A stretch of 64,000 nt of DNA from the NCBI GenBank assembly GCA_001044335.1, contig CP011001.1, forward strand, positions 1-64,000. The letters run 5' to 3'. The DNA is from Methylophilales bacterium MBRSF5 (GTDB lineage: Bacteria > Pseudomonadota > Gammaproteobacteria > Burkholderiales > Methylophilaceae). Shown in pieces: positions 4,242-21,517 of the stretch. Position numbers and translations under genes: made by a program. The stretch's first letter is position 1. Every line of letters begins with the position of its first letter. The notes below the pieces were generated by a model. The model saw only the letters and a list, made by a program, of their open reading frames with translations. It was not told where the DNA came from and did no database searches.

Positions 4242-4269
4242 ATGTCGATAAATATCCATGTTGTGTATC

Positions 4270-4350
4270 AAAACAACCTCGAGTCTATATCTTTACTAAC
4301 CCAGTCTTCCGTCTGTTGTTTCATAACCACCCAATCTTTGACATCTTTTA
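4270..4350 (-). repeat. ~80-bp repeat, copy B (gene 3' end)
   Basis: On the minus strand it encodes KDWVVMKQQTEDWVSKDID, then SRLF and a TGA stop; the other copies use TAA. Here the frame happens to have an ATG at 4360, giving a possible 30-residue peptide (4268-4360). That may be accidental, since copies A and C have no in-frame ATG at that point. Confidence 0.75.
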
Positions 4351-4504
4351 ATATCTTCATAAATAGCAATATGACAAAAAAATGACAATACTCGGGATAG
4401 TGTCATTTGTTTCTAATTATAGTGAACTAACTTATACAGATTTACCTCTTACGCACGTCTTTATTTATTAATGGACACTTTTTCAATTAAATATAAGGGA
4501 ATTT

Positions 4505-4972: not shown

Positions 4973-4987
4973 TTAAAAGGGATAAAT

Positions 4988-5050
4988 ATGAATATTAACT
5001 ACTTATTAATACTATTATTTGTGTCTTTAGCATCCTGTTCGACTTATTAG
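4988..5050 (+). CDS. 20-residue lipoprotein-signal peptide
   Basis: MNINYLLILLFVSLASCSTY ends in a perfect lipobox (LASC) and leaves a mature lipopeptide of only CSTY. An AAGGGAT ribosome-binding site precedes the ATG, 15 nt after the fasciclin stop. It may be a genuine minimal lipoprotein, like entericidin or a lysis peptide, or a gene cut short. A terminator follows 20 nt later, so the coding unit ends cleanly. Confidence 0.45.
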   Translation: MNINYLLILLFVSLASCSTY

Positions 5051-5069
5051 AAAATAGCAAAAATTAATC

Positions 5070-5093
5070 AACCCTGCTTCGGCAGGGTTTTTT
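5070..5093 (+). terminator. Rho-independent terminator, copy 2
   Basis: AACCCTGC-TTCG-GCAGGGTT plus T-run, nearly identical including flanks to 4217-4241. It ends the fasciclin/mini-lipoprotein unit. Confidence 0.85.
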
Positions 5094-5238
5094 ATGTCTA
5101 TAAAAATTCATATATATAGGTCATTGTGTTAGAGGATAAGGAGTGACTACAGAATATATTTGTTTAAAAATGAACTATTGATATACCAATAATCATAACC
5201 TTGTATTCCACTTAACTATATTGTGAAGGGTCGAATAA

Positions 5239-5469
5239 ATGAAAGAGGGCATCGTCAATTTTAAACATTTAGATAACGCTAAATCAACTTATTTAAAGCA
5301 CTTACTTTATGCTACAAAATTCAATTGTATAAGCTTACTTATTTTTATAACTGGATTAATACATAGTTTTTTACCTTTTTTATTTGCCTATACTCCATAT
5401 AAACTAGCAAAGTATATTGTTACCGAAACGGAAAAACATCTTGGAAGACCTGAAGAAGAAATTAAGTGA
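5239..5469 (+). CDS. DUF6356 family protein
   Basis: This 76-residue product has the DUF6356 pattern: an N-terminal HLDNAKSTYLKHLLYATKF, one hydrophobic segment (about residues 32-52) containing LIHSFLPFLF, and a short charged tail. It is probably a small membrane protein of unknown function. Its last 53 nt overlap, in another frame, the beginning of the AMP-binding gene, so the two are probably translationally linked. Confidence 0.7.
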   Translation: MKEGIVNFKHLDNAKSTYLKHLLYATKFNCISLLIFITGLIHSFLPFLFAYTPYKLAKYIVTETEKHLGRPEEEIK

Positions 5470-6163
5470 AGGTGTTTATATACAATCTAGTGGAACAACT
5501 GGCGAATCAAAAACTATTTTCCGAACACCTGAAAATTTAAGACACTGCAATAAATCTGCAATAGACTCACAAAAAATTACAAAAAATTCACGAATTTATA
5601 CTGTATGTAAAATGGGACATGCAGGAGGTATGTTAGCTCAAACTCTGCCAGCTTTGAGTATTGGAGCTGATGTTGTAATTGAAGATTTTAATATTAAAAG
5701 ATTTATTAAAGAGTTTTATAAATATACCCATACTCATCTGACTCCACGACAGGCAAAAATTATTATGAGTCATAGAGATTTTAATGAAATAGACTTCTCT
5801 AAATTTTGGATAACTTGTGGGAGTGATTGTGTTGATTGGGAAACAATAAGAGCATTTGTTAATAGGGGTGCAACTTTTATGGTTAATTGGGGAATGAGTG
5901 AGATTGGACCATGTGCGATTAATATCGTTTTTTCAAAAGACAGCTCTATAGATGATTGTATTTCTTTAGCACCAAATAATTTATCCATAATGGGTGAAAA
6001 TTTTTATTGTGACTATCAAATATCTGATTCAAATGAATTAATTGTTAAGGGAGATATTTGTATTTACGATGATTGGTTTGCTACTGGAGATTTAGTTGTG
6101 AAAAAAAATAAAATATCTTCACATCATGCAAAACCTATTATGTATTTTTTAGGTAGAAAATAA
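5417..6163 (+). CDS. very short AMP-binding (ANL superfamily) protein
   Basis: The core adenylation motifs are present: A3 SSGTTGESKTI, A5-like WGMSEIGP, A7 ATGDLV, and the beginning of the A8 hinge (FLGRK), where the protein ends. A typical ANL enzyme has about 500 residues. This one has at most 248: it starts right at A3 and lacks the C-terminal lid with the A10 catalytic lysine. The start is uncertain; only TTG codons (5417, 5441) are available and no good ribosome-binding site is seen. It may be a remnant or a minimal adenylate-binding protein. It sits between DUF6356 and an alcohol dehydrogenase. Confidence 0.7.
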   Translation: MLPKRKNILEDLKKKLSEGVYIQSSGTTGESKTIFRTPENLRHCNKSAIDSQKITKNSRIYTVCKMGHAGGMLAQTLPALSIGADVVIEDFNIKRFIKEFYKYTHTHLTPRQAKIIMSHRDFNEIDFSKFWITCGSDCVDWETIRAFVNRGATFMVNWGMSEIGPCAINIVFSKDSSIDDCISLAPNNLSIMGENFYCDYQISDSNELIVKGDICIYDDWFATGDLVVKKNKISSHHAKPIMYFLGRK

Positions 6164-6288
6164 GTTCATATAGATAATTAACCACTACTGACTATTAACT
6201 GCAAACATTTATTTGGGGTATTTATATTTTAGGAGCAGGGCGATAAAGCAGTGTTTACAGAATATTTAATAAGGTTAATAATCAAGTA

Positions 6289-7293
6289 ATGAAAAATAAA
6301 ACTTACGCAAAAATTGAAAATAAAGATAAGCTCGAATTACTTATCACAGAGCTTCCAAATATAGACGATAACGAAGTTTCAATCAAAGTCATCAACTGTG
6401 GAATATGTCATAGCGACATAAGTGCAATAGATAATGCTTGGAATCTTTCTAAATACCCCCTTGTAGCTGGTCATGAAATAATAGGCGAAGTGGTTCAAAT
6501 AGGAAAAAATGTCAAAAATCATAAAGTTGGAGACATAGTTGGGCTGGGCTGGCACTCTGGATATTGTCATGATTGTGAATATTGTAAAAATGATGATTTC
6601 AATTTCTGCGTAAAAACAAAAAAGACTATTTATAGCCAAACGGGTGGTTTTGCTGAATTTGTAAATGCTGATTCAACAGCTGTAATCCCTATACCGAAAG
6701 GAATGGATTTAGATAAAATTGGACCATTATTATGTGGAGGAATAACTGTTTTTACTCCAATCATCGAATTCAATATAAAAAAAAATGACAAGGTTGGAGT
6801 AATTGGAATTGGAGGCTTGGGACATTTAGCAATTAAATTCCTCAAAGCAGTTGGTTGCGATGTAACAGCTTTTTCTTCATCTCCCGAAAAGAAAAATGAA
6901 ATATTATCAATGGGAGCAAATGAAGTTATTCAATCTAATAATGATGAAACTTTAAAAAAATATAATGATAGATTTGATTTCATCATATCTACTGTAAATC
7001 ATAAACTTAATTGGAATCAATATCTCGGGTGTCTAAAGCCTAGAGGGAGACTTCATATGGTTGGAGCAACATTGGATACTTTAGATGTAAGTGTTTTCAA
7101 TCTCATGAAAGGGCGTAAATCAATTTCAGGGTCACCAGTTGGGAGTCCTAAAAATATTATCAAAATGCTTGAGTTTGTAAATAAACATAATACTTATCCA
7201 GATGTTGAAATTTTCAGTTTTGATTCTATAAATGAAGCAATTTCAAAATTGAGAAAAAATGAGATTAGATTTAGGGCAGTTGTTAAATGGTAG
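6289..7293 (+). CDS. zinc-dependent alcohol dehydrogenase (MDR family)
   Basis: The 334-residue medium-chain dehydrogenase begins with the catalytic-zinc signature CGICHSDIS and GHEIIGEV, then four structural-zinc cysteines (CHDCEYCKNDDFNFC). The Rossmann motif is GIGGLGHLAI. Overall it is closest to the cinnamyl-alcohol/YahK type aldehyde reductases using NADP(H). It is full length. It would reduce an aldehyde or oxidise an alcohol; with the adjacent AMP-binding protein, acid activation followed by reduction can be imagined, but that is inference. Confidence 0.85.
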   Translation: MKNKTYAKIENKDKLELLITELPNIDDNEVSIKVINCGICHSDISAIDNAWNLSKYPLVAGHEIIGEVVQIGKNVKNHKVGDIVGLGWHSGYCHDCEYCKNDDFNFCVKTKKTIYSQTGGFAEFVNADSTAVIPIPKGMDLDKIGPLLCGGITVFTPIIEFNIKKNDKVGVIGIGGLGHLAIKFLKAVGCDVTAFSSSPEKKNEILSMGANEVIQSNNDETLKKYNDRFDFIISTVNHKLNWNQYLGCLKPRGRLHMVGATLDTLDVSVFNLMKGRKSISGSPVGSPKNIIKMLEFVNKHNTYPDVEIFSFDSINEAISKLRKNEIRFRAVVKW

Positions 7294-7367
7294 CATTAGA
7301 TGAAGCATATTTAAGAAGTTGTTACGATAACCATTTAATAGTTGATTTTGGAATTAAGTTGCCATAA
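7287..7367 (+). other. 26-codon frame overlapping the dehydrogenase stop, possible gene remnant
   Basis: An ATG inside the dehydrogenase's last codons opens a frame encoding MVALDEAYLRSCYDNHLIVD and six more residues, ending 7 nt before repeat copy C. The overlap is typical of a coupled operon gene. The product looks like the start of a longer protein cut off at the module border. Confidence 0.35.
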
Positions 7368-7373
7368 ATAATT

Positions 7374-7457
7374 AAAACAACCTTAAGTCTACATCTCTAC
7401 TAATCCAGTCTTCCGTCTGTTGCTTCATACCTACCCAGTCTTTTACTGCTTTTTTTA
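7374..7457 (-). repeat. ~80-bp repeat, copy C (gene 3' end)
   Basis: The minus strand reads KDWVGMKQQTEDWISRDVD, then LRLF and a TAA stop. The reading frame continues upstream about 16 more codons (ending in YYFSELKKAV) with no resemblance to copy A or B, so the shared part is only the last ~25 codons. Confidence 0.8.
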
Positions 7458-7512
7458 ACTCCGAAAAATAGTATTTTATTATCAACTTGGATATACTTAT
7501 TCAGTCCTGATG

Positions 7513-7535
7513 TTGTCCTTATGAAAAAAGGACAA
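7513..7535. other. putative integrase arm-type sites near the tRNA-His scar
   Basis: TTGTCCTT and AAGGACAA form an inverted pair with a 7-bp centre. It starts 42 bp inside the tRNA-His fragment. AAGGACA heptamers also flank both ends of the tRNA-Phe element (17770-17798 and 21399-21416). It could alternatively act as a hairpin. Confidence 0.5.
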
Positions 7536-7576
7536 TAATGTTTTTAACCGAAAAAGAACCGTTATTTTGGGCGTAA

Positions 7577-7638
7577 GTTGGCTAGGAACAGGATTGTGAT
7601 TCCTGTTGTCGTGGGTTCGAACCCCATCAGCCACCCCA
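7577..7638 (+). pseudogene. 3' fragment of tRNA-His (GTG), integration scar
   Basis: The fragment runs from GTTGG of the D loop through a perfect anticodon arm (CAGGA-TTGTGAT-TCCTG), T arm (GTGGG-TTCGAAC-CCCAT) and 3' acceptor strand with encoded CCA. The 5' acceptor strand and 5' half of the D arm are absent. The length, 62 nt from GTTGG to CCA, equals the att repeat of the tRNA-Phe element exactly. It is therefore read as the distal att site of an island and not as a working tRNA gene. Confidence 0.8.
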
Positions 7639-7664
7639 AATTCTAGTTTATAATCGAATCAATA

Positions 7665-7886
7665 ATGAAGATATCAATCTTAATTCTATTTTTTATGATC
7701 AGCAGTTGTAAAACTATTAGTCATATATCAAAAAATAAAATTGATTTTGAAAGATATGCAGATACAGGAAATAGTTCTTCATTTGAAGTTCTGGAAAATC
7801 TTGAAAGTTATAGACCAGCAACTTGTTCAGATATGTCTAGAAATCCATTTATGACTAACAGGTATGAATTTAAAATAAATGAATGA
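7665..7886 (+). CDS. small predicted lipoprotein
   Basis: The 73-residue product has a lipoprotein signal (MKISILILFFMISSC, Cys15) and a short polar mature part ending in NPFMTNRYEFKINE. The gene overlaps moeB by 8 nt, so the two are probably co-transcribed. It is the first chromosomal gene right of the tRNA-His scar. I recognise no family. Confidence 0.55.
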   Translation: MKISILILFFMISSCKTISHISKNKIDFERYADTGNSSSFEVLENLESYRPATCSDMSRNPFMTNRYEFKINE

Positions 7887-8643
7887 CCAGAATTTAGAAA
7901 GATATGGAAGACATATCCTACTCCCGGAAATTGACTTCGAAGGCCAACAAAAGCTTTTAGACAGTCATGTCTTAGTGGTTGGGTTAGGTGGTCTCGGATC
8001 GCCAGCATCTATTTATCTCGCCTCGTCTGGTATTGGTGAGTTAACCTTATGTGACTTTGATGATGTCGAATTATCAAATTTGCAAAGACAAATAGTGCAT
8101 ACAGAAGATAATCTAAAAATTAATAAAGCATATTCTGCTAAAGGTTTTATTTCATCAATAAATTCAAATATCAGTATTAATGTTGTTGATAAAAAATTAA
8201 GTGAAAATGAATTTGATATTTATGTAAATAAATATACAGTGGATGCAATACTGGATTGCTCAGATAATTTTCAAACCAGATATAGTGTAAATAAAGTAGC
8301 CTTTAAAAATAAAATTCCTCTTATCTCTGGTTCAGCCATTCGATTCGAGGGTCAGCTCGCTATTTTTGATTTTAGGGATAACAGTTCAGCTTGCTATGAA
8401 TGTTTGTTTCCTGACAATGGCGAAGAAAATGAATTGAGATGCGCAGATCATGGGATACTTGCACCAGTGGTTGGTATTATTGGGGTAATGCAATCTCTAG
8501 AGACAATTAAAGTGCTATTGAATCTCAGTCCTATTAAAAATAAGTTAAAGATCTTTGATGGGAAAAGCAATGAATGGAAAACAATCGCATTTAAAAAAGA
8601 TAAAGAATGTGCAATCTGTTCATGTTCATCCGATCAATTCTAA
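7879..8643 (+). CDS. moeB: MoeB/ThiF-type adenylyltransferase
   Basis: This E1-like enzyme adenylates the C-terminal glycine of a ubiquitin-like sulfur carrier (MoaD or ThiS). The N-terminus RYGRHILLPEIDFEGQQKL is family-typical. The nucleotide-binding loop is GLGGLGSPAS, and DFDDVELSNLQRQ follows. Zinc is held by two Cys pairs (CYEC and CAIC), and the RCADHGILAPVVG segment carries the cysteine near the active site. At 254 residues it lacks the rhodanese domain of longer MoeB/MOCS3 forms. Which carrier it serves cannot be told from context; moaC lies far away at 59865. Confidence 0.85.
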   Translation: MNDQNLERYGRHILLPEIDFEGQQKLLDSHVLVVGLGGLGSPASIYLASSGIGELTLCDFDDVELSNLQRQIVHTEDNLKINKAYSAKGFISSINSNISINVVDKKLSENEFDIYVNKYTVDAILDCSDNFQTRYSVNKVAFKNKIPLISGSAIRFEGQLAIFDFRDNSSACYECLFPDNGEENELRCADHGILAPVVGIIGVMQSLETIKVLLNLSPIKNKLKIFDGKSNEWKTIAFKKDKECAICSCSSDQF

Positions 8644-8669
8644 AAGCATCATGATAAAATAACTCCCTT

Positions 8670-11477
8670 ATGCAAGAATTAGAAAAATCCTTTAATCCAT
8701 CTTCTATAGAGTCTAAGTGGTACGCCTTCTGGGAGCATCAGGGTTATTATCAATGTGGATTAGATGAAGAAAAAAAAGATAATTTTTCAATTTTATTACC
8801 ACCTCCGAATGTAACCGGGACCCTACACATGGGGCATGGCTTTAATCAAACTTTAATGGATAGTTTGACTAGGTATCATCGCATGAGAGGATCTAATACC
8901 TTGTGGCAGCCAGGCACAGATCATGCAGGCATAGCAACACAAATAGTTGTTGAAAGACAATTGGATCAACAAAATATCTCAAGACTTGACTTAGGACGTG
9001 AAAAGTTTATTGAGAAAGTCTGGGAATGGAAAGAGGAGTCCGGGGGTAAAATAACTCAACAAATGAGGAGGCTTGGCACCTCGCCTGACTGGAGCCGTGA
9101 AAGATTTACCATGGACGAAGGTTTGTCAAAAAGCGTCAATCAGGTTTTTGTAAAATTATTTAATGATGGCCTCATCTACCGAGGCAAGCGTTTAGTTAAC
9201 TGGGATGTAAAGTTACAAACCGCTGTATCTGATCTTGAAGTAATTCAAGAAGAAGAAAATGGTCATTTATGGCATATCGATTATCCCCTTGCTAATAATC
9301 AAGAAGAAAAATTAACCGTTGCAACAACAAGGCCAGAAACAATGCTTGGTGATGTAGCCGTGATGGTTCACCCAGACGACGATCGCTATAAAAAACTCAT
9401 TGGCTCAAATGTTATCCTCCCCCTGATCGGCAGAGAGATCCCAATTATTGCTGATGAGTATGTTGATATGGAGTTTGGGACAGGAGTCGTAAAAGTGACT
9501 CCAGCACATGACTTCAATGACTATGAAGTGGGTAAAAGACATTCTTTAGACATGATTAATATAATGAGCCTTGATGGGTTCATTAATGAAAATGGTGGTG
9601 AATTTAAAGGTCTGGAAAGATTTGAAGCGCGAAAAAAAATTGTCGAAAGTCTCAAAGAGCAAGGCTATCTAAATAAGGTAGAAGATTACCGTCTAAAAAT
9701 TCCAAGAGGAGATAGAACTAACGTCGTTATAGAACCACTCCTCACGGACCAATGGTTTGTGGCGATGAGTAAAAAAGTACACCAAAGTCCAAGCATTGCT
9801 GAGGAGGCTTTGAATGTTGTAAAAAATGGTGAGGTGAAGTTTTACCCTGATAATTGGAAGAACACCTACAACCAGTGGTTAGAAAATATTCAAGACTGGT
9901 GTATCTCCCGACAGCTCTGGTGGGGCCATCAAATACCTGCGTGGTATGGACCCAATGATGAAATCATTGTCGCTCATGACAAAGAAGAAGCACAAAAGAT
10001 TGCTACTGAAAAAGGCATTGATCCAAAAAATTTACAGCAAGATAATGATGTCCTTGATACATGGTTTTCATCTGCCTTGTGGCCATTTTCGACATTAGAT
10101 TGGACCCCTGAATATCCAAGCGTTTCAAATCCTGTGATTGACAAATATTTGCCTTCATCTGTTCTGGTAACAGGGTTTGACATTATTTTCTTCTGGGTAG
10201 CGCGAATGGTCATGCTAACGAAATACGTTACTGGAAAAATTCCTTTCAAACATGTATACGTGCATGGGCTGATTCGGGATTCAGAGGGCCAAAAGATGAG
10301 TAAGTCGAAAGGTAATGTTCTTGATCCTATTGATTTAATTGATGGAATTGATCTAGACAAATTGGTTGATAAAAGGACCTATGGATTAATGAATCCAAAA
10401 CAGAAAGAATCAATCGCTAAACGTACTAAAAAAGAATTTCCAGATGGAATATTAGCTTATGGAACGGATGCACTAAGATTCACTTTTGCCAGCTTAGCGT
10501 CTCCAGGCCGAGATATAAAATTTGATTTGAATCGTTGTGAGGGTTATCGAAATTTTTGTAACAAGATTTGGAATGCCTCTCGGTTTGTTTTAATGAACTG
10601 TCCAGATGATGATAATGGTTTTGAGCAATGCACAGACGGATTCATGAATTTCTCTCAAGCAGATCGATGGATTACGTCAATTTTTCAAAATACATTAAAA
10701 AATATTGAGTCTAATTTTGATAATTATCGTTTTGATTTAGCGGCTCAGGAGATGTACCAATTCATCTGGGATGAATATTGTGATTGGTACCTTGAAGTAG
10801 CTAAGGTGCAATTAAATAATTCTAATTCTGAAGCAACGATTCGAGGGACCAAAAGAACGCTGCTAGGGTTACTAGAAAATATTCTTAAAATGGTCCACCC
10901 TATGATGCCATTTATTTCAGAAGAAATTTGGCAGATTATTTCTCAGAAAACGGGTACGCATTCTGAAACCATTATGTTGCAAAGTTATCCTTTATCCAGG
11001 GAGAAAAAAATTGATAAGGATGCAGAAGCATGGATGCAGACTTTAAAAAATATGGTGGAAGAGTGCAGAAAATTAAGAGGTGAGATGAATATTTCTCCTG
11101 CAGAAAAAGTGCCACTTCTCATTATTGGCAATGCAGAAGCTATCCAGTCATATCAAGATTATCTAGTTCAGCTTGCTAAACTAGAATCCATATCTGTTGT
11201 TGATAGTTTTGAAAAAATTGATGCCCCAGTTTCAATCGTCGGTGAATATAAATTGATGCTTAAAGTCGAAATTGATGTTGCCGAGGAAAAGCAAAGATTG
11301 CAAAAAGAAATAGATAAGTTAATGATAGAGTTGAAAAAAGCTGATGGTAAATTAGCAAATCAATCGTTTATAAAAAAGGCACCGAAGAGTGTGATCACTC
11401 AAGAAAAAGAGAGACAAAAAAAATTCTCGGAAGATTTGCAAAAATTTAAAGAACAACTATCTAGATTAGATAGCTAG
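8670..11477 (+). CDS. valS: valyl-tRNA synthetase
   Basis: The 935-residue class I synthetase has the HIGH-type motif in [13 protein letters not shown], the KMSKS motif in [10 protein letters not shown], an editing domain between them ([22 protein letters not shown]), the anticodon-binding domain, and the C-terminal coiled-coil arm (from about residue 865, [13 protein letters not shown]) specific to ValRS. Length is normal. Its last 4 nt overlap the convergent TusA-like gene. Confidence 0.98.
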
Positions 11478-11710
11478 CCCTTCAATATCCTAATGATGAA
11501 GGTTTCATTTTCACTTCGATCATCAATAAACTCATGATCAGTATATTCACAAAAAGCCTTTAGATCTTTAACCGCATTTTTATCTGTAGCAATAATTTTT
11601 AAAATCTGACCTTTTTTTATATTGCTTAAAGCTTTTTTTGTAGAAAGAAGAGGCATTGGGCATTTCTGCCCAATGGCATTTAACTCTACTTCGTTGCGAT
11701 TTTCACTCAT
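11474..11710 (-). CDS. tusA: TusA-family sulfurtransferase
   Basis: The 78-residue protein has the TusA/SirA signature [20 protein letters not shown] with the persulfide-carrying Cys in CPMPL. The family relays sulfur to tRNA modification or molybdenum cofactor enzymes. Its ATG overlaps the bacterioferritin stop (4 nt), so the two form an operon. Whether it is the true TusA or a paralogue is not determinable here. Confidence 0.8.
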
Positions 11711-12153
11711 TTATTGAATGGTTCCATATCGCCAGGATTTCTTAACATTTTGTCAACTTCACCTAAATGCAATTCTTCATTGTAAATCATTTCTCTGGCA
11801 TATTCCTCTAACATCACCGAATGGCCTTCAACCAGTTTCAGTAACTCTTTATATGAGTTCAAAGCTGACATCTCATGGTCTAAAGATTCTCTCAAGATGT
11901 CACCGATATCATGGTTCTCAGTTTCTAGTAAAGGCCCAATTGCAAGAGATGGGTGTCCGCCAAGATTGGTAATTACCTCCCCAGCTTTATTTGCATGGTC
12001 CAGAGATTCAGTGGCTTGATCTCTGAGCCATGAAATGATTGGAATTCGGCTATATCCGTAAACCATTAGGCTGTAATGAGTATAGCGAACCACACCTGCC
12101 AGTTCTAATTCTAAGATTTTGTTAAGTGCATCAATTATTTTTTTGTTATCCAT
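11707..12153 (-). CDS. bfr: bacterioferritin-like ferritin
   Basis: The 148-residue four-helix protein carries ferroxidase-type residues (ELELAGVVRYTHYSL with Glu and His; ESLDHANKAG; DHEMSALNSYKELL; YNEELHLGEVDKML with ExxH). Length and pattern match bacterioferritin. Likely role: iron storage and oxidative protection. The family's heme-binding Met52 is not evident, so heme binding is doubtful. It is the first gene of a two-gene operon with the TusA-like gene. Confidence 0.8.
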   Translation of the reverse strand: MDNKKIIDALNKILELELAGVVRYTHYSLMVYGYSRIPIISWLRDQATESLDHANKAGEVITNLGGHPSLAIGPLLETENHDIGDILRESLDHEMSALNSYKELLKLVEGHSVMLEEYAREMIYNEELHLGEVDKMLRNPGDMEPFNK

Positions 12154-12230
12154 GATAAATCCCTAAGGTTAAATTTAAGATGATTTAAACATAAAAATTA
12201 AAGGGTTGCAGAAACAAGAATGATTGTTAT

Positions 12231-12623
12231 TTAGATTCTTATTAGAAAACTAACAATATTAAGAATAGCCATTGCGATCATGGTCCAAAAGGTAAACTTC
12301 ATTCCATGAACCCGCTGTTTTAGATCCATGGTTTTTTTTAAAAATGATTTTGCATGGACAATCCTGCCATAGGTAAAACAAATGCCAGCTATAAATATAA
12401 GTGAGAAGTGAATTTTATTTAATTCCATACATGCCATCATGATTAACCCAAGTGGCACATACTGACTAAAATTGGAGTGGGCTGCAATGGCCTGCTCAAG
12501 CTCTTTATTTTTTGCAAATCCTATCGTAATTTTATGTTTACGTCGTATTTGGATGACATTTTTAGCTAAGTAGAAGTATAGAAAAAAGAGTATCGAACTA
12601 AATAAGGCAGTCACAGGGATCAT
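12231..12623 (-). CDS. MAPEG family membrane protein
   Basis: The 130-residue protein has four predicted membrane helices and the MAPEG signature in RVHGMKFTFWTMIAMAILN and AAHSNFSQYVPLGLIMMA. Bacterial relatives are often annotated as glutathione S-transferase-like. The substrate is unknown. It lies alone between the bacterioferritin operon and the ROK kinase. Confidence 0.8.
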   Translation of the reverse strand: MIPVTALFSSILFFLYFYLAKNVIQIRRKHKITIGFAKNKELEQAIAAHSNFSQYVPLGLIMMACMELNKIHFSLIFIAGICFTYGRIVHAKSFLKKTMDLKQRVHGMKFTFWTMIAMAILNIVSFLIRI

Positions 12624-12672
12624 GTTAAGTCTCTAAAAGATAATGAGTTAATTATATTCAAATAAGGTTTTA

Positions 12673-13551
12673 TTACAACAGAGCTGCCCCATAAACACCA
12701 GCAGAGTCTCCAAGCTTATTCATTATAATTGGTGTTTTGAGAGATTCAGAAAAAACATACTTTTGTGTTTCCTTAAAACCGTCGTTATAAAGACTTGCCA
12801 AGTTTGATAACCCACCGCCTAAGACAATAATATCTGGGTCAATGCTATTAATAATATTGGCAACAGATCTTCCAAAATTATTTAAAAACTCATCAAAAAT
12901 TTTTATTTCAATACCATTTTTATTTCTCTTGTTAAGAAACTCTTTAGCAGAATAATTAATTCCATATTTTTTTAATTGAGTTTCTATTCCGCCACCTGAT
13001 ATGTAGGTTTCTACACATCCTCTTTTACCGCAATAGCATTCATTACCATAAGGATATAAGACGGAGTGGCCCCATTCACCTGAAATTAAATTTGGACCCA
13101 AGCGTAATTGATTATTAAACACAAAACCACCACCACAACCTGTTCCCATAATAATTCCAAATACCAGCTCATAGTCTTTGCCAGCCCCAAGAGTTGCTTC
13201 CGCTAGAGCGAAACAATTTGCATCATTTTCGATTTTGACAGAGTGATTAAGTCTTTCTTCAATCATTGCTTGTAAGGAAGTGCCATTTAGGCATGTGGTA
13301 TTCGAATTTCTTAGCAGCTTTGTGTCAGGCGCAACGGAACCAGGAGTACAAATACCGACTTTAAAGTCATTTGATGCAACCACACTCAATGCTTGAGAAT
13401 AAATTTTTGATATTTGGTTGATGATATGGTCCGGACCTTTTTCGGCCTCAGTTGGGATTCGCTCTCTAAATATAGCTAGTTGATCCTTAAGAACAATCGT
13501 TTCAATTTTTGTACCACCAAGGTCAATGCCAATATTAAATTTAGGAGTCAT
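12673..13551 (-). CDS. ROK family sugar kinase
   Basis: The ATP-binding motif IGIDLGGTKIE opens the 292-residue protein. Further hallmarks are the catalytic Asp in ENDANCFALAE, the GTGCGGG loop, the ROK signature around SGEWGHSVLYP, and the zinc site C-x-CGKRGCVE. The protein resembles glucokinase, fructokinase and N-acetylglucosamine kinase of the ROK family; the sugar cannot be read from sequence. It is transcribed singly, divergent from the small membrane gene at 13608. Confidence 0.88.
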   Translation of the reverse strand: MTPKFNIGIDLGGTKIETIVLKDQLAIFRERIPTEAEKGPDHIINQISKIYSQALSVVASNDFKVGICTPGSVAPDTKLLRNSNTTCLNGTSLQAMIEERLNHSVKIENDANCFALAEATLGAGKDYELVFGIIMGTGCGGGFVFNNQLRLGPNLISGEWGHSVLYPYGNECYCGKRGCVETYISGGGIETQLKKYGINYSAKEFLNKRNKNGIEIKIFDEFLNNFGRSVANIINSIDPDIIVLGGGLSNLASLYNDGFKETQKYVFSESLKTPIIMNKLGDSAGVYGAALL

Positions 13552-13607
13552 TGAGGAAAATATATTTTTAAATTAAAGTTTGGTCAAGTTTTTGATAATA
13601 TTGTTTT

Positions 13608-13790
13608 ATGGATTATGTATACCAATTAATAGCTTTAATCTTTTTTTTCTTTATTTTCAAACATTCATGGGATGGTTACAAAGAATTTAAAGTCGCCAAT
13701 GATGTGAGAAAATCTGAAATTAAAAGAATGTGGCTTCTCTTTTTAGTAATCTCATTTATTTTTGTCTACATTCTTTTAAGCGATAGTTAA
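13608..13790 (+). CDS. small two-helix membrane protein, unknown
   Basis: The 60-residue product has hydrophobic segments at about 5-20 and 42-58 around a charged loop (KEFKVANDVRKSEIKR). No family is recognised. It is first in a plus-strand run of small membrane genes that precedes the MoxR operon. Confidence 0.5.
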   Translation: MDYVYQLIALIFFFFIFKHSWDGYKEFKVANDVRKSEIKRMWLLFLVISFIFVYILLSDS

Positions 13791-13834
13791 AATCATTTTT
13801 AAGCTCATCTATATAAAAACAAAGGATCACAATT

Positions 13835-14041
13835 ATGATTAAGTGGATTAGTACAGTTTTGGTTCTAACAGGTATTCTCTTAACTAATTTAAATTTATAC
13901 CCATTAAATATTTATTTTCATGGTTTAGGAGTTATTGGTTGGACAATAGCCGGACTTTTATTTAAGGACAAGGCTATTCTTGTCAATTTTGGACTACAAA
14001 TCCCACTATTTTTATTTGGTTTTTTAAAGACAATTATTTAA
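13835..14041 (+). CDS. small membrane protein, DUF6552-like
   Basis: The 68-residue, mostly hydrophobic product has the pattern KWISTVLVLTGILLTNLN..YPLN..GLGVIGWTIAGLLFKDKA, which recalls small DUF6552 proteins. An AAAGGATC ribosome-binding site precedes the ATG. Function is unknown. Confidence 0.5.
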   Translation: MIKWISTVLVLTGILLTNLNLYPLNIYFHGLGVIGWTIAGLLFKDKAILVNFGLQIPLFLFGFLKTII

Positions 14042-14086
14042 CTTTAACTTGAATGAATTATTTAAATATATTCAAATCAGTAAACT

Positions 14087-14932
14087 ATGAAAAAAATTCA
14101 TATACCAAAGGCACAAGACAAAGAACTTGCACTATCTTGCTTAGTTGCGAATGAGCATTTATTAATTGAGGATATTCCTGGAACTGGGAAAACACAGTTA
14201 GCTAAAGATTTATCAAAATTCTCTAAACTACCAACTAACAGAATACAGTGTACTAATGATCTTATGCCTGCCGATGTTCTTGGTTACTACCGCTTGACGA
14301 CTGGGAATAAATTAAAATTTATAGAGGGACCAGTCTTTACAAACATCCTACTAATCGATGAATTAAATCGTGCGCCGTCCAGAACACAGTCAGCCTTATT
14401 AGAGGCCATGGAAGAGCTTCAAGTTACAATTGAGGGAAAGACATATAAGTTACCTGATCCTTTTTTTGTGATTGCAACACAAAATCCGAGGGAGCAGATA
14501 GGGATATTTGATTTACCAGAGTCCCAATTAGACCGTTTCAGTATTTGTATCAATATGGACCATAAAAGTAAAGAAGACTACCTTGACATAATGAATCAAA
14601 CAAAATTAACTAGCCAACAGTTCAAAAAAAATATATTAACTATCAAGAAGAAAATGAAGGGTATTCATTTTGAGGATAGCTTAAAAAATTATTTACTGAA
14701 CATTTTTGAAAATATTGAAAATATTATCAACAAAAATCTAGCAATTAGGCCAAGACTTCAGATACGGAGATTAGCCGAGGCTATGGCCTCAATAGACAAC
14801 AGAGATTTTGTAATTCCAGAGGATATTTTAATTTTTTTAGTCCCATCCCTTAGACATCGCCTCTCAACTAATAATTATGAGGAAATTCATGAGATTGTTA
14901 TCAAGGCGCTAGAGGGGGTTAAGACTCCTTAA
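14087..14932 (+). CDS. MoxR family AAA+ ATPase
   Basis: The 281-residue MoxR ATPase shows Walker A (EDIPGTGKTQLAKDL), Walker B and following motif (LLIDELNRAPSRTQSALLEAMEE), sensor 1 (FVIATQNP) and the C-terminal helical lid. MoxR proteins act as chaperones and are usually encoded with DUF58 and transglutaminase genes, as here: DUF58 starts 2 nt after the stop. It was named for methanol oxidation genes, but this operon type is widespread. Confidence 0.92.
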   Translation: MKKIHIPKAQDKELALSCLVANEHLLIEDIPGTGKTQLAKDLSKFSKLPTNRIQCTNDLMPADVLGYYRLTTGNKLKFIEGPVFTNILLIDELNRAPSRTQSALLEAMEELQVTIEGKTYKLPDPFFVIATQNPREQIGIFDLPESQLDRFSICINMDHKSKEDYLDIMNQTKLTSQQFKKNILTIKKKMKGIHFEDSLKNYLLNIFENIENIINKNLAIRPRLQIRRLAEAMASIDNRDFVIPEDILIFLVPSLRHRLSTNNYEEIHEIVIKALEGVKTP

Positions 14933-14934
14933 AT

Positions 14935-15834
14935 ATGCTAAATAATTATGCAGATCATCTGTCAAAAAAATTCAACATAAGAAAATATAAGTTGAATAGT
15001 GTTAAATCCATTAGACAGATTTATGCCCTACCAACTCGATTTGGCATCTATCTTGGATTTGCTTTAATTGGCGGGGTAGCACTATCAAGTAGATTAGAAA
15101 ATAATTTTTTATTGCTCATGCTGTTGTTTCAGATGGCAGTATTCTTTTTATCAATTATTTGGTCAGCAAATAATTTAAAGGGAATAACTTTAAAGATTAA
15201 AGACGATTTCATTTTCATACCTAGTGTCCACCATCATATTCCTATAGGAATTATCAATACAGATCAAAAATTTAATATCTTAATAAATAAGCAAGAAATA
15301 AAAAAAAGGGAAATAGAATTATACGTCTACGATAATCATTTTAAAAAAAGAGGCAAAGCAGAAGTTTCAGCGATAAAAATTGAATCATTTTTCCCTTTCA
15401 GTATTGTTAGATGTTGGCTTTGGCTATGGCCTGGGAGTATATATGTAGCCCCAAGACCATACCCAATAAAAACAATAAGCGACATTGAAAAATTCTTGAA
15501 ATTACATGCTAAAAAAAATAATGATGATAGTTATGACCACTATAGAAAATATTTAGATCAGGATTTACCATCAATGGTGGACTGGAAAAGATATGCCTCA
15601 AAAAAAATAAAGGTAACCAAGGCCTCAGATAATAAGAAAATAGAACAAAAAATTAAAATTGATGGAGATGGGTTAATAAGAAAACAAAAAGAGCATATGC
15701 TAAGTGTCATCTGTGGCGTCCTTCTGTTCTGTCAGTCAAAGAAAATTGATTGGCAGCTTTCTTTAAGAAAAAAAACTTTTTCGTCAGTGAAAAAAGATTT
15801 TAATGCTGCGATTAAATCACTCTCAGTTGCTTAA
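14935..15834 (+). CDS. DUF58 domain protein
   Basis: The 299-residue protein has two N-terminal membrane segments (about residues 34-75) and the DUF58 signature DLPSMVDWKRYASKKIKVTK (about residues 213-232). DUF58 proteins are partners of MoxR ATPases; some carry a vWA-like fold. It overlaps the next gene by 32 nt, supporting a three-gene operon. Confidence 0.88.
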   Translation: MLNNYADHLSKKFNIRKYKLNSVKSIRQIYALPTRFGIYLGFALIGGVALSSRLENNFLLLMLLFQMAVFFLSIIWSANNLKGITLKIKDDFIFIPSVHHHIPIGIINTDQKFNILINKQEIKKREIELYVYDNHFKKRGKAEVSAIKIESFFPFSIVRCWLWLWPGSIYVAPRPYPIKTISDIEKFLKLHAKKNNDDSYDHYRKYLDQDLPSMVDWKRYASKKIKVTKASDNKKIEQKIKIDGDGLIRKQKEHMLSVICGVLLFCQSKKIDWQLSLRKKTFSSVKKDFNAAIKSLSVA

Positions 15835-17662
15835 GAAAAATAGGTTACTCTTATTTTTTCTTCCAGTTTTATTGATTTACTCGTCAATACTACCGCTGTA
15901 TGCAATTTTAAGTTTTTTTCTATGCTGGTTAATGACAAAAACATTAACTAGAAAACAAATTATTTTTAGATTATCTTACCTAATAACAGTAATCAGTAAT
16001 CTATATGCTTACCAGAACATCTTTGCTGCTGAATTTTGGATCATCTTACTATTACTAATAATCCCCTTGGCAATTCGTTATGATAAAGAAAAATACAATA
16101 GCCTATCTTTATCAATTGTAAGCTTTATTACTGCCTCAATATTTATTTTTAAACCTAGTTTTTTTACAACAATCTTTATATTTATTTGGATAAATTTTTT
16201 TCTGGCAATCTACATAAATTATAAGTTTAATTATCAACTCAATATGAATGCAGTAAATTGGAGTAGGTTAATTAAATTCTTAACGTCAACCATATTCATA
16301 GTCACCATCATCTTTTTAATTATTCCCAGATTTCAGGTGACATTAATAAGTAATAAAAATCAGAAAAATGATATCGGACTGGAAGATACATTAAACCTTC
16401 AAAATGATAGTTTTATAAGTACTGAAAAAAATGAGATATATAAGATAAAAATAGATGGCTCATTAAAAAAAATACCCTACTGGAAAGTATTTGTTTTATC
16501 TAATTATGATAATTTTGAATGGAGTAAAAATCAGGAATCTTTAGAATATATTCCAAAGTCAATAAACTTTGATGAAAATTATTCATATAAAATTATTAAG
16601 AATAAAAACATTTCTCAAAAGAACCTTCCTGTTCTAGGAAACTACCCAATTAAATCAGGGGTGCACAAAAATAAAATTACAGTTGATGGTGAATTAATAC
16701 TAGATAAAAAATTGATCAATCAGTATACAGAGGTAGTAATTCAATCCTCTGAGAGTATTGAGGTGGAGAGAACAATAAATTATTCTCATGAAAAAAAATC
16801 TAAACTGACTCAGTGGGCTATAGATGAATATCAAAAAATTAATGATGAAAGAGATTTTGTAGATTTTATAAATAATTACTTCAAGAAAAATTTCAAATAT
16901 AAGATTAATGATTTAGGCCTTAATAAAAATAATCCCATTGATAGTTTCTTTTTTGATAAAAAGAATGGGAGCTGTACCCACTTTGCATCAACAATGGCAC
17001 ACATCTTGAGAGCAAATGATATTCCTGCAAATGTTGTTATAGGATACGTGGGCGGGGAGTGGAATAATTTTGGAAAGTTTATGACTGTATTTTCAGACAA
17101 TGCACATGCATGGGTTGAAGCAAAAATTAATAATCAATGGGTTTATGTTGATCCAACTTCTTATGTTGATAGCACAGGTCTTAATCATGTTGAGTTTAAT
17201 TTTTTTGATCAAAATCTGAATAAAAGCTTATTAGAAAATATTAGCGACTACATAAGTTTTTTAGACATTACTATTTCAAAAAAAATTATGAATTATGGAT
17301 ACTCGAAGAAAAATTCATCACAATTCATAGATTATATTGAGATTTTGCTTTTCATATCTGTACCAGGTTTTTTTATTCTTTTGATTATCTATATTTATAG
17401 AAATATCAAAGAATTTGAGCTTCATCCGCTTAATAGATTAGAAAAAAATTACAGGCAGATCTTGATAAAGCAGGGCCATAAAATAAATCCACAGAATAGT
17501 TTACATGTTATGGAGTTTTCCAAAAATACTTCACATGAGACCAAGCAAAAGATACGGTTAATAAATAGAAAGATACTCGAACTTAAATATGGACTTAATA
17601 AAAATTATAGTGAAATTAAAGCAGTAACTAGTTTGATTAAAAGTGAATTGCGGGATAAATAG
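15803..17662 (+). CDS. membrane transglutaminase-like protein (TgpA type)
   Basis: The 619-residue protein has an N-terminal bundle of about six membrane helices, then a periplasmic transglutaminase core with the Cys-His-Asp triad (NGSCTHFASTMAH; DNAHAWVEAK; WVYVDPTSY), then one more helix near residue 510-530 and a C-terminal cytoplasmic tail. This matches TgpA of the MoxR/DUF58 operon, which acts in the periplasm. Its stop is 2 nt before the left att site of the tRNA-Phe element, so the element borders but does not interrupt it. Confidence 0.9.
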   Translation: MLRLNHSQLLKKNRLLLFFLPVLLIYSSILPLYAILSFFLCWLMTKTLTRKQIIFRLSYLITVISNLYAYQNIFAAEFWIILLLLIIPLAIRYDKEKYNSLSLSIVSFITASIFIFKPSFFTTIFIFIWINFFLAIYINYKFNYQLNMNAVNWSRLIKFLTSTIFIVTIIFLIIPRFQVTLISNKNQKNDIGLEDTLNLQNDSFISTEKNEIYKIKIDGSLKKIPYWKVFVLSNYDNFEWSKNQESLEYIPKSINFDENYSYKIIKNKNISQKNLPVLGNYPIKSGVHKNKITVDGELILDKKLINQYTEVVIQSSESIEVERTINYSHEKKSKLTQWAIDEYQKINDERDFVDFINNYFKKNFKYKINDLGLNKNNPIDSFFFDKKNGSCTHFASTMAHILRANDIPANVVIGYVGGEWNNFGKFMTVFSDNAHAWVEAKINNQWVYVDPTSYVDSTGLNHVEFNFFDQNLNKSLLENISDYISFLDITISKKIMNYGYSKKNSSQFIDYIEILLFISVPGFFILLIIYIYRNIKEFELHPLNRLEKNYRQILIKQGHKINPQNSLHVMEFSKNTSHETKQKIRLINRKILELKYGLNKNYSEIKAVTSLIKSELRDK

Positions 17663-17663
17663 A

Positions 17664-17725
17664 TGGTGGCCAGAGACAGAATCGAACTGTCGACACGAGG
17701 ATTTTCAGTCCACTGCTCTACCAAC
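17664..17725 (-). repeat. attL: tRNA-Phe 3' fragment
   Basis: 62 bases identical to 21441-21502, covering the 3' CCA through GTTGG of the D loop in minus orientation. Beyond 17725 the sequence diverges and the 5' acceptor half is missing, so this is not a functional tRNA. Its other end is 2 nt from the transglutaminase stop. Confidence 0.95.
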
Positions 17726-17768
17726 AAACCCCTTTATTTATAGGTCTTTCACTGTCAGTTAATCACAT

Positions 17769-17799
17769 TTGTCCTTCAAAAAAGACAGATAAAGGACAG
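17769..17799. other. putative integrase arm-type sites, left end
   Basis: TGTCCTT (17770-17776), a degenerate AAGACAG (17782-17788) and AAGGACA (17792-17798) lie about 45-73 bp inside attL. The same heptamer recurs at the right end and near the tRNA-His scar, suggesting integrase binding. Confidence 0.55.
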
Positions 17800-17836
17800 G
17801 ATATATCATTCGTAAAAAAATTCCAATGGGTCAAAA

Positions 17837-17864
17837 TTGATGAAAGTTTGATGAGGTGTATAAT
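17837..17864 (+). promoter_or_regulatory. sigma70-type promoter for the cargo operon
   Basis: TTGATG, a 16-bp spacer and a perfect TATAAT sit 28 bp before the TTG start of the barrel gene. The cargo therefore appears to have its own promoter and not to depend on read-through from the host operon. Confidence 0.65.
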
Positions 17865-17891
17865 TGTATGCCCGAAATTTGAATTATTGAT

Positions 17892-18896
17892 TTGAAAAAA
17901 TTTTTACTAGTTATTTCTGTTCTTTTTTTAACTTTTAGTGCTATTGCTATTGATGAGCTTCATTTAAAAAATAATGACAATTTTTTTACAGATGATGGTT
18001 ATGAATCTGACAATAGAACCGCTAATAAAAATCAATCGTCATCAAAATATTTTAATCTTGGCAAATCATTATTAGCAGGTAATACAGACTCACTTAAAAG
18101 TACCGCCATTAATGCTTTAACTGCAGAGGGTATTGGTGTATCAAAGTCATTTCTTGAGAAGTATTTCCCAACAGTTGAAATCAGTGCGAATTTTGGCGAC
18201 CCATCAAAACCAACTGCAGGTATTTTAGTTGTTGCACCATTGAGTGATATTAATGATGTTAAAAATACCTTTTTTACACAATTAAGTTCTTTTTATACTG
18301 ACAATAGAACAACGGTTAATATTGGATTCGGTTATCGTAGGCTGGAATTTGATAATAAATTACTTTTAGGAGCTAATGTTTTTTATGACCATGAATTTCC
18401 TTATGACCATCAACGAACTTCCGTTGGTTTAGAAGCTAGAACAACTGTAGGTGAGGTTAATTTTAATCAATATTGGGGTATATCAGGCTGGAAAGATGGC
18501 AGAAATGGTCTTGAAGAAAGAGCACTGGGGGGAACTGACATTGAGGTTGGTATTCCTTTACCTTATATGAACTGGGCTAAATTTTATGCTCGCTCGTTTG
18601 TCTGGAATGCAGTCGATGGAGTAAATGATATAAAAGGTAATGATATTTCTCTGCAGGCAAGAATGAAAGGGTTCATTATTGAGGCTGGACATAGAACATA
18701 TAACACTTTATCTGATGAGGATTTTATTAGAGTTTCCTACAATTTAAATGCAGATAAATCTGATGAGGATTTTCAATGGTTTAGTGAAACAGCATATAAG
18801 TTAGCTTCAATGGAAAAACATAGGTTCGATAAAGTCAGAAGAGAGAATCTTATTGTTAAACAAAGAAGAGGGGCTTTAAGAGTCATTACCCGATGA
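17892..18896 (+). CDS. inverse autotransporter beta-barrel protein without passenger
   Basis: A TTG start opens a signal peptide (about residues 1-19, ending FSAIAID). Residues ~75-300 form the intimin/invasin-type beta-domain: EISANFGDPSKP, NIGFGYRRLEFDNKLLLGANVFYDHEF, SVGLEARTTVGEVNFNQYWGIS. The post-barrel linker (FDKVRRENLIVKQRR) that normally leads into Ig-like passenger domains is present, but the protein stops about 12 residues later. So an outer-membrane barrel is made with nothing to export in cis. The stop overlaps the next ATG (ATGA), implying coupled translation and a possible partner. The barrel assignment is confident; the partnership is inferred. Confidence 0.85.
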   Translation: MKKFLLVISVLFLTFSAIAIDELHLKNNDNFFTDDGYESDNRTANKNQSSSKYFNLGKSLLAGNTDSLKSTAINALTAEGIGVSKSFLEKYFPTVEISANFGDPSKPTAGILVVAPLSDINDVKNTFFTQLSSFYTDNRTTVNIGFGYRRLEFDNKLLLGANVFYDHEFPYDHQRTSVGLEARTTVGEVNFNQYWGISGWKDGRNGLEERALGGTDIEVGIPLPYMNWAKFYARSFVWNAVDGVNDIKGNDISLQARMKGFIIEAGHRTYNTLSDEDFIRVSYNLNADKSDEDFQWFSETAYKLASMEKHRFDKVRRENLIVKQRRGALRVITR

Positions 18897-19975
18897 AAAA
18901 TATTGTCTTTTTCTTAATTCTATTTTTTACATCTAGTCTGTTAAATGCAGCCCCAACCTCACTGGAGCCTTTCTGTTCTTCCAGTCAGTTAGGTTGGAGT
19001 AAAGACAGTTGTATCTCACCTTGTTCAGAATTAACCGTTGATGGCTCATATGGTTCTAATTCACTTGGGGATGGTTCGGTAGGATTTTGTTATGGGCAAG
19101 CTACTGTATATAAATTTACTATTAAAAAAATCCAATTAGGAGTGTATGCAAATACAGCAGAAAAATGCACCATATATGAAGGTAACTTATTAGTTGATTC
19201 TGGAACATCATCGCCAGGCACTATTATTTCTGGAGGCTCACCTGATTTTTCAACATGTAAAGATGGCATCACCTACGATACGGTGTATATCACAACCAGC
19301 AGAATCATTGATTATGCAGCAAATACCAATTATCCAGATGGATCTGGTTCTGTTGCTAGAACGACATCGTATTGTTCAAGTGCGACTTTAAATGATTCAT
19401 CACCTGGAAGCATGCCTTGGTTAGATGTGATGTCGGGAGGTAATTACAGCGATGCCTCAAAATGTCATGTGAGGGAGAGTGTTACATGGAATACTCATTA
19501 TCAAAAAGCAGCCTCATCTCCAACAACCACTGATTTTTCAAGTTCTTCAAATGTGACAAAAGAATGGGACGACTGGAAAAGTATCTACTTAAATTCATTG
19601 AGTGATTTCTCAAATCCAGCTTCAGCTCAAATTGATAGTGAGGGTTACTATAGAGAATATGATTCAGATTCTAGTGGCTTTTCAAATGATCTTTCTGCAT
19701 ATGTTGCTGATTACCAAGCTGATACTATTGTTCAAAAATTAACAACTGATAGTGGGGTGGTTGATATTTTTGGAGGCTATCCATTTGACTCTGAATCACC
19801 TCATGAAATTGCTATAAGTATTTATGCACAAAATAGAAATGAAACTGGAAAAGAATATGGAGCCAGATTTTATTTTTTAAGAAACGGCACAACAGCTGAA
19901 TTTATTGGGACTAATCCTTCCAATTCAGGCCTATATTTATCAATTATCCAACTTAACCAAAAAGCACCCTTTTAA
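18893..19975 (+). CDS. secreted cysteine-rich protein, possible partner of the barrel
   Basis: The 360-residue protein has a signal peptide (about 1-20, ending LLNAAP). The mature part holds about nine cysteines, mostly in the first 190 residues, with many Ser/Thr/Gly, and has no membrane segment or known domain that I recognise. The C-terminal ~80 residues look beta-rich (GVVDIFGGYPFD; GARFYFLRNGTTAEFIG). It overlaps the barrel gene by 4 nt. A separately encoded surface or exported partner of the passenger-less barrel is the natural hypothesis. An effector or adhesin role is possible; nothing proves one. Confidence 0.65.
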   Translation: MKNIVFFLILFFTSSLLNAAPTSLEPFCSSSQLGWSKDSCISPCSELTVDGSYGSNSLGDGSVGFCYGQATVYKFTIKKIQLGVYANTAEKCTIYEGNLLVDSGTSSPGTIISGGSPDFSTCKDGITYDTVYITTSRIIDYAANTNYPDGSGSVARTTSYCSSATLNDSSPGSMPWLDVMSGGNYSDASKCHVRESVTWNTHYQKAASSPTTTDFSSSSNVTKEWDDWKSIYLNSLSDFSNPASAQIDSEGYYREYDSDSSGFSNDLSAYVADYQADTIVQKLTTDSGVVDIFGGYPFDSESPHEIAISIYAQNRNETGKEYGARFYFLRNGTTAEFIGTNPSNSGLYLSIIQLNQKAPF

Positions 19976-20415
19976 TTAGTTGTTAAATCATAAAGTTTTT
20001 CGGGATTATAAAAAGAGAAATTAAATAAATAATCGATTAAAAACTATTTAAACACTGTCAATTTGTTACTTCTCTATAGACATATAAATTGATTATTTTT
20101 AAATATAACTAGAAAATTAACCAAGCACTTTCATTTCTATTCCAATATTTTCAATATTAGATCTAGCAGCTTTGAGTCATCATACTTTGATAAAATCATT
20201 TTTCGCTCCATGCTTTGAGGCACCGCTCAAAATGATTATTTAACTGTTTTTAAAGCTGTTTATTTAATTGCTAAATAAAATTTGATTTTATCATATTTTT
20301 GCTACTAGATACAGGGATAAAAAAGTGCATAGCATTAAATTAGTAATAAAATCAATAAGTTATACTAGAATTATTTTTAGTCAGTCATCCTAAATCAGTC
20401 AAGCTAGATTGCTTT
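19976..20415. other. 440-bp non-coding stretch in the element, with a two-step inverted repeat
   Basis: No convincing gene is seen on either strand. At 20194-20237 an outer arm AATCAT/ATGATT encloses an inner perfect TTTGAG-GCACCG-CTCAAA hairpin (20214-20231). This could be a small RNA, an excisionase or protein-binding site, or the shared 3' end of the convergent cargo and integrase units. Confidence 0.45.
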
Positions 20416-21384
20416 TTACCTCATCATTTTGCCTAATAAATGAGTGGTTTGGATGTGGGTATAACGCTTTAACACCTGCATACTTTGATGACCAGAAATG
20501 GTGGCGACTTCCATTGGATTGAGTCCTTTTTCAAAGAATCGTGAGACGGCTTCATGGCGTAAGGTATGGAAAGAAGCGTTAGGTATACCTGCTCGCTTAC
20601 ATGCCCTATAGAAGGCTACAGAGACCGCATGAGAGGTGATATTGAATAGCCTTTCTCCCTGCAGACGGGTTTGGTGTTGTAAGATTTTTGCTACCTTGTT
20701 AGTCATCGGAATATAGCGGTCATGATAGTTTTTTGTATTGCGTACAGTAATCATGCGTTTCTTAAAATCACAATCATTCACTCTTAATTTAACAATCTCA
20801 CTCACTCTCATAGCTGTATCAAGTGCTATATGAATCAGTAAAGGAAGAAGTGAGGATTGACTATGCTGACAGATGCGATGAATGTCATCATCACTTAATC
20901 GTGTGTCTCTTGATTGCGGTAGTCGAGGTCGTCTAATCTTAAGCACAGGATTATTTAAGTTATCAAAACCCCATTCGGTTCTTGCAATAGTAAATAAGTG
21001 GGAAAGTATCGCCAAATATAATCGAATGGTGTTGGGGGATTTAAGTTCTTTAATCAGCTGGTCTCGAAACGAACTAATGTGTTGCGATTTAATGGTTCTC
21101 ATCTTTAGAGATACGATGGGGTGAAGCAGAATTTTATTGATGCGATAGTTATCAGGTTGAGGATGTTTTTTAGTCGGTAAAATCTCTTTTTGGTAACGCT
21201 GCAATAAAGTCTTTAAAGCGATGTCTTGGTTCGCCACTTCAATGCCTAAATCAATTTCACGCTCTTGTTGTCGTGCCCAAACTTTAGCATCTTCTTTGTA
21301 GACAAAAGTTTTAGAAATGGGTGGATTATTGCGTCGTTGAATACGCACTTGCCATTTGTTGTTTCTTTTGCGATAAGTAGCCAT
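20416..21384 (-). CDS. tyrosine recombinase, integrase of the tRNA-Phe element
   Basis: The 322-residue integrase has an N-terminal arm-binding region (MATYRKRNNKWQVRIQRRNN), a SAM-like core-binding domain (about 60-160), and a catalytic domain with Arg (TAMRVSEIVKLR), HxxR (HTLRHEAVSRF), His (SGHQSMQVL) and the nucleophile Tyr (KRYTHI). The ATG at 21384 is used; a longer frame to 21501 runs through the tRNA and is not credible. It sits 57 bp from the tRNA 3' end, the normal place for a tRNA-targeting integrase. It is complete and looks active. Confidence 0.93.
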   Translation of the reverse strand: MATYRKRNNKWQVRIQRRNNPPISKTFVYKEDAKVWARQQEREIDLGIEVANQDIALKTLLQRYQKEILPTKKHPQPDNYRINKILLHPIVSLKMRTIKSQHISSFRDQLIKELKSPNTIRLYLAILSHLFTIARTEWGFDNLNNPVLKIRRPRLPQSRDTRLSDDDIHRICQHSQSSLLPLLIHIALDTAMRVSEIVKLRVNDCDFKKRMITVRNTKNYHDRYIPMTNKVAKILQHQTRLQGERLFNITSHAVSVAFYRACKRAGIPNASFHTLRHEAVSRFFEKGLNPMEVATISGHQSMQVLKRYTHIQTTHLLGKMMR

Positions 21385-21398
21385 CAAACTCTCCAAAA

Positions 21399-21416
21399 AA
21401 GGACAGCTGAAGGACA
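21399..21416. other. putative integrase arm-type sites, right end
   Basis: Two direct AAGGACA heptamers (21399-21405 and 21410-21416) are spaced 11 bp apart, one helical turn, between the integrase start and the tRNA 3' end. They match the sites at the left end. Confidence 0.6.
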
Positions 21417-21440
21417 AAAGTAAAGGGGTGTTCAAAAGAG

Positions 21441-21517
21441 TGGTGGCCAGAGACAGAATCGAACTGTCGACACGAGGATTTTCAGTCCACTGCTCTACCA
21501 ACTGAGCTATCTGGCCA
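21441..21517 (-). tRNA. tRNA-Phe (GAA)
   Basis: The complete cloverleaf reads on the minus strand from TGGCCAG to an encoded CCA. The anticodon stem-loop GGACTGAAAATCC gives anticodon GAA. The D loop (AGTTGGTAGA) and T arm (GTTCGATTC) are normal. The element's right att repeat covers 21441-21502, so the gene was kept intact by the integrated copy of its 3' end. Confidence 0.97.

Follow-up and report, generated by a model that had tools for sequence, protein, structure and literature searches.

The genome of Methylophilales bacterium MBRSF5 is one contig of 1,352,814 bases, and the window that we analysed is its first 64 kb. It contains a complete element at a tRNA-Phe gene (the Phe element) and the right part of an island at tRNA-His (the His island). 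The Phe element (17664-21502) is about 3.8 kb long and has exact ends: a 62-nt repeat, running from the GTTGG of the D loop of tRNA-Phe to the CCA, is present in identical copies at 17664-17725 and 21441-21502. The second copy is part of an intact tRNA-Phe(GAA) gene (21441-21516, minus strand, identified by ARAGORN) and is either supplied by the element or shared with it. The first copy, also on the minus strand, is the distal att site, a displaced 3' piece of tRNA-Phe (positions 15-76), and outside it the host sequence is that of the empty site in a close relative, G015. Between the two copies are an integrase of 322 amino acids (20416-21384, minus strand), an inverse autotransporter beta-barrel protein of 334 amino acids (17892-18896, plus strand; Pfam IAT_beta PF11924, E = 8e-32), and an orphan protein of 360 amino acids that looks secreted (18893-19975, plus strand) and has no match in Pfam or PADLOC.

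The Phe integrase matches PF00589, and in our alignment it conserves the catalytic residues R193, K218, H273, R276, H299, and Y308, that is, the R-K-H-R-H set and the tyrosine of the complex tyrosine integrases. Its AlphaFold2 model (pLDDT 90) matches the fold of lambda Int and has predicted N-terminal strands at residues 2-7, 10-15, and 23-27, the putative arm-binding strands, followed by core-binding helices at 75-86 and 117-136. Arm-like repeats lie at the ends of the element. By its sequence and predicted fold, the protein is one of the arm-binding-domain (complex) tyrosine integrases and a putative recombinase.

Only the right part of the His island (1-7588) lies at the start of the window; the rest (tRNA-His, integrase, and doubled arm site) is at the contig's other end. 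The contig's last 77 nt (L007:18739-18815) are the same as window positions 72-148, and a large helicase ORF that runs to the contig end shares its reading frame, through this join, with the ORF at 124-1572. We therefore regard the chromosome as circular and place the contig origin within the His island, whose length would be about 13.4 kb. Presumably, the helicase ORF is joined across the contig ends. Window positions 1-71 have no counterpart at the contig end (from comparison of the contig ends) and are probably an untrimmed assembly end. The first-pass annotation had advised a search to the left of position 1 for an intact tRNA-His with an integrase beside it, and across the origin we found both: the tRNA at C1:1346828-1346903 (contig search) and, directly beyond it, an integrase at C1:1346993-1347961 that is 76% identical to the Phe integrase. 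This identity bears out the view that related integrases made both islands, whose ends have heptamers in common (see below).

In the cargo of the His island, the helicase plus PLD gene (L007:16688-18814 and, in frame across the origin, 124-1572 on the plus strand) starts at the contig end, has the C-terminal part of its protein in the window, and resembles MkoA/MkoC of the Mokosh defence. A T5orf172 (GIY-YIG-like) protein (L007:14616-15545) matches the candidate defence family PDC-S57, and window positions 1514-2563 encode an HNH plus HIT fusion protein. No primase, Bro-network, or packaging-interference genes were recognised in the Phe island or in the scanned portion of the His cargo ORFs.

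Ends and empty sites of the two islands

A 3' piece of tRNA-His is present at 7577-7638, as the first-pass annotation had it, but there is no 62-nt tRNA repeat from the D loop at this end. The real block of identity with the intact-tRNA end is the 90 nt at 7589-7678 (plus strand), as determined from the identity and from comparison with the empty site. It begins at position 27 of the tRNA, where the anticodon stem starts, and extends 40 nt beyond the CCA; its tRNA portion matches C1:1346854-1346903. To its left, GTTGGCTAGGAA (7577-7588, plus strand) is an element-side stretch that resembles a D arm but has 7 nt different from tRNA-His. An att block shared from the D loop onward is thus true of the Phe element, where the annotated repeat was exact, and false for the His island. 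The equal 62-nt lengths had been read as a shared att geometry, but they are not evidence for one because both tRNAs are 76 nt long with GTTGG at position 15. Past the 40 nt of host sequence beyond the CCA, the His element side has a few bases closer to the G015 allele than the host's own; the 40 nt may be host DNA that was picked up by an earlier element.

Each island has an intact tRNA at one end and a 3' fragment at the other, and the proposed search for empty sites succeeded, as both the tRNA-His and the tRNA-Phe sites are empty in G015. In that genome, the two genes that come after the His island directly follow tRNA-His (the ThiF-like protein is 98% identical), and the gene adjoining the Phe island (93%) directly precedes tRNA-Phe. 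The His site is also empty in other members of the genus. The neighbour of the Phe site (transglutaminase-like) turned up in no more than two other members of the genus, and the Phe site was compared with G015 alone. Elements in relatives had also been anticipated: related elements do occur there, but no tRNA-His element was seen in other members of the genus. Among viral contigs, there were only 3 close relatives of the integrase, at 33-36%.

The heptamers noted inside the distal att sites form inverted pairs: TGTCCTT (7514) and AAGGACA (7528) in the His island (7514-7534), and TGTCCTT (17770) and AAGGACA (17792) in the Phe element (17770-17798). The two noted on the integrase side of the Phe element are a proximal doubled site of two TGTCCTT, 11 bp apart, at 21399 and 21410 (21399-21416, minus strand), and another copy is at the far end of the His island (L007:12973). 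Heptamer density had been suggested as a test, and its outcome was mixed. Over the whole window the heptamer is at chance (10 seen, 8.4 expected), so we dropped its overall frequency as evidence and count the clustering alone. The clustering is strong: of 12 copies over 82.8 kb, 7 sit within four zones, each about 60 bp long, at the island ends (Poisson, about 3e-17, for zones that were picked post hoc).

The integrase family and a candidate recognition code

A genome scan and genome searches gave us a set of 119 related integrases and then 55 further ones. Just upstream of 93 integrases of the first set, there is an identified tRNA or 3' fragment (at least 90% identity); in the second set, 45 have a complete tRNA. 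The target labels are based on this adjacency of integrase and tRNA. Family members adjoin tRNAs of 17 kinds, selenocysteine included, and single genomes have up to ten family matches. There are few att repeats within the first loci, and probably many elements are longer than the flanks that we examined. The doubled arm site appears to be a family trait: in 66 of 92 tRNA-integrase intervals, an exact 7-mer occurs twice, precisely 11 bp apart (0.4 in shuffles). The letters of the repeat vary among members, but it is usually TTG followed by four variable bases and mostly A.

The family also has a second layout (G092, G046, G096, and G041; L157-L164, L167-L168), in which the displaced fragment is the one that adjoins the integrase, and the intact tRNA lies on the opposite strand at the element's other end. 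One viral contig (L151, IMGVR_UViG_2751186020_000007) carries two family integrases in tandem. Another genome of the same genus has a tRNA-Arg island (G018:C1:1264800-1304799; L153, L154) with three copies of an arm of about 70 bp plus a 31-bp tRNA core. These repeats bound modules of 2.8 and 6.5 kb, one of them with an RND efflux system, and are possibly the result of stacked or cassette-like insertions.

The Phe and His integrases are a mosaic. At the nucleotide level they are 57% identical over codons 1-119, 88% over codons 120-310, and 33% beyond, and there is a jump in synonymous differences too (Fisher p = 8e-7). As both genes are in one genome, about 27 kb apart, and as the high identity of codons 120-310 includes synonymous sites, the mosaic could reflect gene conversion between the two copies, unrelated to the choice of target. 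We consider this possible but somewhat doubtful, since the combination of a similar catalytic part with a different core-binding part recurs between different genomes that have different targets. Gene conversion could still apply to the Phe/His pair, for which, taken alone, it cannot be told apart from module exchange.

Across the family, the core-binding domain tracks the tRNA target. For the 93 members with a target label, the member most similar in core-binding windows has the same target in 28-37% of cases (chance, 4%), as compared to 1-12% for catalytic windows. Target information is not detectable in the catalytic domain, and at this level of agreement the core-binding domain is far from a full predictor of the target. 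In the training set of 71 members, covariation links residue 121 to the pair 31:39 and residue 122 to 30:40. Predictions were written down before they were tested on 44 new members, which are at most 82% identical to the training members. In these held-out members, residue 121 gave the correct base 31 in 34 of 43 cases (majority baseline 26/44; Fisher p = 2.4e-5), and residue 122 gave the correct base 30 in 36 of 43 (baseline 33/44; Fisher p = 1.5e-5). When all 322 columns were ranked in the held-out members, 121 was first for base 31 and 122 was first for bases 30, 39, and 40. The pairing of residue 77 with base 28 was weak (18/33 correct, majority baseline 17/44). Residue 81 as a reader of base 29 was strong in training but failed in the held-out members (24/38, p = 0.51), and we rejected it.

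At the other end of the protein, the variable bases of the doubled arm repeat (11 bp) covary with residues 5, 12, and 14. When 24 held-out members were examined, R14 was first for two of the arm bases and R5 was first for one, so residues 5 and 14, like 121 and 122, hold in held-out members. In the AlphaFold2 model, helices 75-86 and 117-136 hold the core columns, and the arm columns fall on the N-terminal strands or next to them. Both integrases, Phe and His, carry R5, Q12, and R14 as well as N118, R121, and L122, which fits with their shared heptamers and with the GGA/TCC inner stem that the tRNA-Phe and tRNA-His targets share.

Common ancestry inflates covariation, and our controls for it are the catalytic domain and a comparison of close pairs, not a tree-based model. 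Some same-target integrases are indeed close relatives, as they would be if the link between core-binding domain and target were due to shared ancestry rather than recognition. This explanation seems unlikely to us: in the same sequences, no association with target is seen for the catalytic columns; the held-out members, despite their limited identity to the training members, obey the rules for 121 and 122; and residue 121 changes with base 31 in catalytically close pairs (it differs in 95% when base 31 differs and in 36% otherwise, a contrast larger than that of any other column). In such pairs, linker residues 155-158 outrank 122 for base 30.

Comparison of the sequences of about 160 relatives suggests that separate and swappable parts of the integrase read the anticodon stem and the end repeats. 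On balance we favour a two-part code, in which residues 118-125 would specify inner pairs of the anticodon stem and residues 5, 12, and 14 would specify the variable arm bases. Exchange or mutation of a module, along with a new tRNA piece, would allow moves between most tRNA genes. We found no published natural code of this kind in the open-access literature that we searched, which is weak evidence of novelty.

Site of strand exchange

Three subsites of integration are recognised within tRNA genes: the anticodon loop, the T loop, and the junction of T and acceptor stems (PMC4383910). In this family, fourteen adjoining fragments of good identity begin at tRNA position 25-33, and such starts in the anticodon region are also seen in att pairs (G092, G096, G041, G077, and others). 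Together with the His block and the covariation with the stem, these starts imply that strand exchange most likely occurs in the anticodon loop; the family is thus placed in the anticodon-loop class by comparison. The Phe block, which starts at position 15, is unlike the family, and the repeated core of G018 (tRNA positions 12-42) is a second outlier; both contain the anticodon stem-loop. In the displaced His piece, positions 20-26 differ from the same genome's intact tRNA-His (CTAGGAA against TAGAGTC). Because the empty site in relatives has an ordinary D arm, this odd stretch most likely arrived with the His element, with the exchange to its right.

The first-pass annotation had instead proposed that, whichever tRNA is the target, these integrases recombine at its D loop (GTTGG), and although the Phe block and the His piece do both begin with GTTGG and the G018 core starts at position 12, we rejected this as very improbable because the His D arm lies outside the 90 identical nt that follow the odd stretch, the relatives' empty sites have a normal D arm, the family fragments begin further into the tRNA, and the covariation is with the anticodon stem and not the D arm.

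We think it quite likely that both islands are integrative elements of sister tyrosine integrases, from one widespread family whose modular enzyme inserts at the anticodon loop of tRNA genes. The 7-bp anticodon loop would be the overlap for strand exchange, and the flanking anticodon stem would be the pair of core sites. The displaced 3' piece of the tRNA would stay at the far end, and the element would supply a new 3' end, so that the tRNA remains intact. The doubled arm repeat of 11 bp near the integrase (TGTCCTT in these islands) would be read by the three-stranded N-terminal sheet, and the inner pairs of the anticodon stem by the core-binding domain; the catalytic domain would contribute no detectable target information. 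We also infer that the contacts are physical ones, that the elements are mobile at present, and that homology of the loop distinguishes the Phe from the His target.

In the study of genomic islands, a basic question is how tRNA-targeting integrases pick a tRNA and switch to another. The family offers more than 100 natural pairs of integrase and target in one fold, with held-out statistical support for residue-base pairing. If the contacts are real, then part of the target stem could be predicted from the sequence of the integrase, and retargeting could be tested by single substitutions. Two-module recognition would also explain how islands move from one tRNA gene to another.

Comparison with known systems

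The islands resemble the class A anticodon-loop islands of Islander (PMC4383910): in both cases, the integrase lies by the intact tRNA, the far end has a 3' fragment that was displaced, exchange is assigned to the anticodon loop, and relatives have an empty site. There is no difference in principle, but here the Phe block reaches the D loop and the His end has 40 nt of host sequence beyond the CCA. The helper-embedded satellites (HE-PICIs) are likewise small elements that bear an integrase and have a doubled arm motif with copies 11 bp apart, and a case has been reported of a very similar integrase that moved to tRNA-Phe (PMC10111431). In contrast to the HE-PICIs, no satellite or phage genes were recognised in the Phe cargo, and no helper phage is known.

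The integrases of lambda and HK022 have the same arm-binding, core-binding, and catalytic domains and are the best fold matches, at about 22% identity. Unlike the targets of this family, the attB of lambda is not a tRNA gene. A known lambda/HK022 specificity residue, N99 (PMC10863862), aligns to column 77 of this family. The strongest code columns here (118, 121, and 122) align near lambda 139-142, outside the residues named in that study. The two islands are ordinary in kind and were rightly seen as sisters, and the candidate code is the part of interest.
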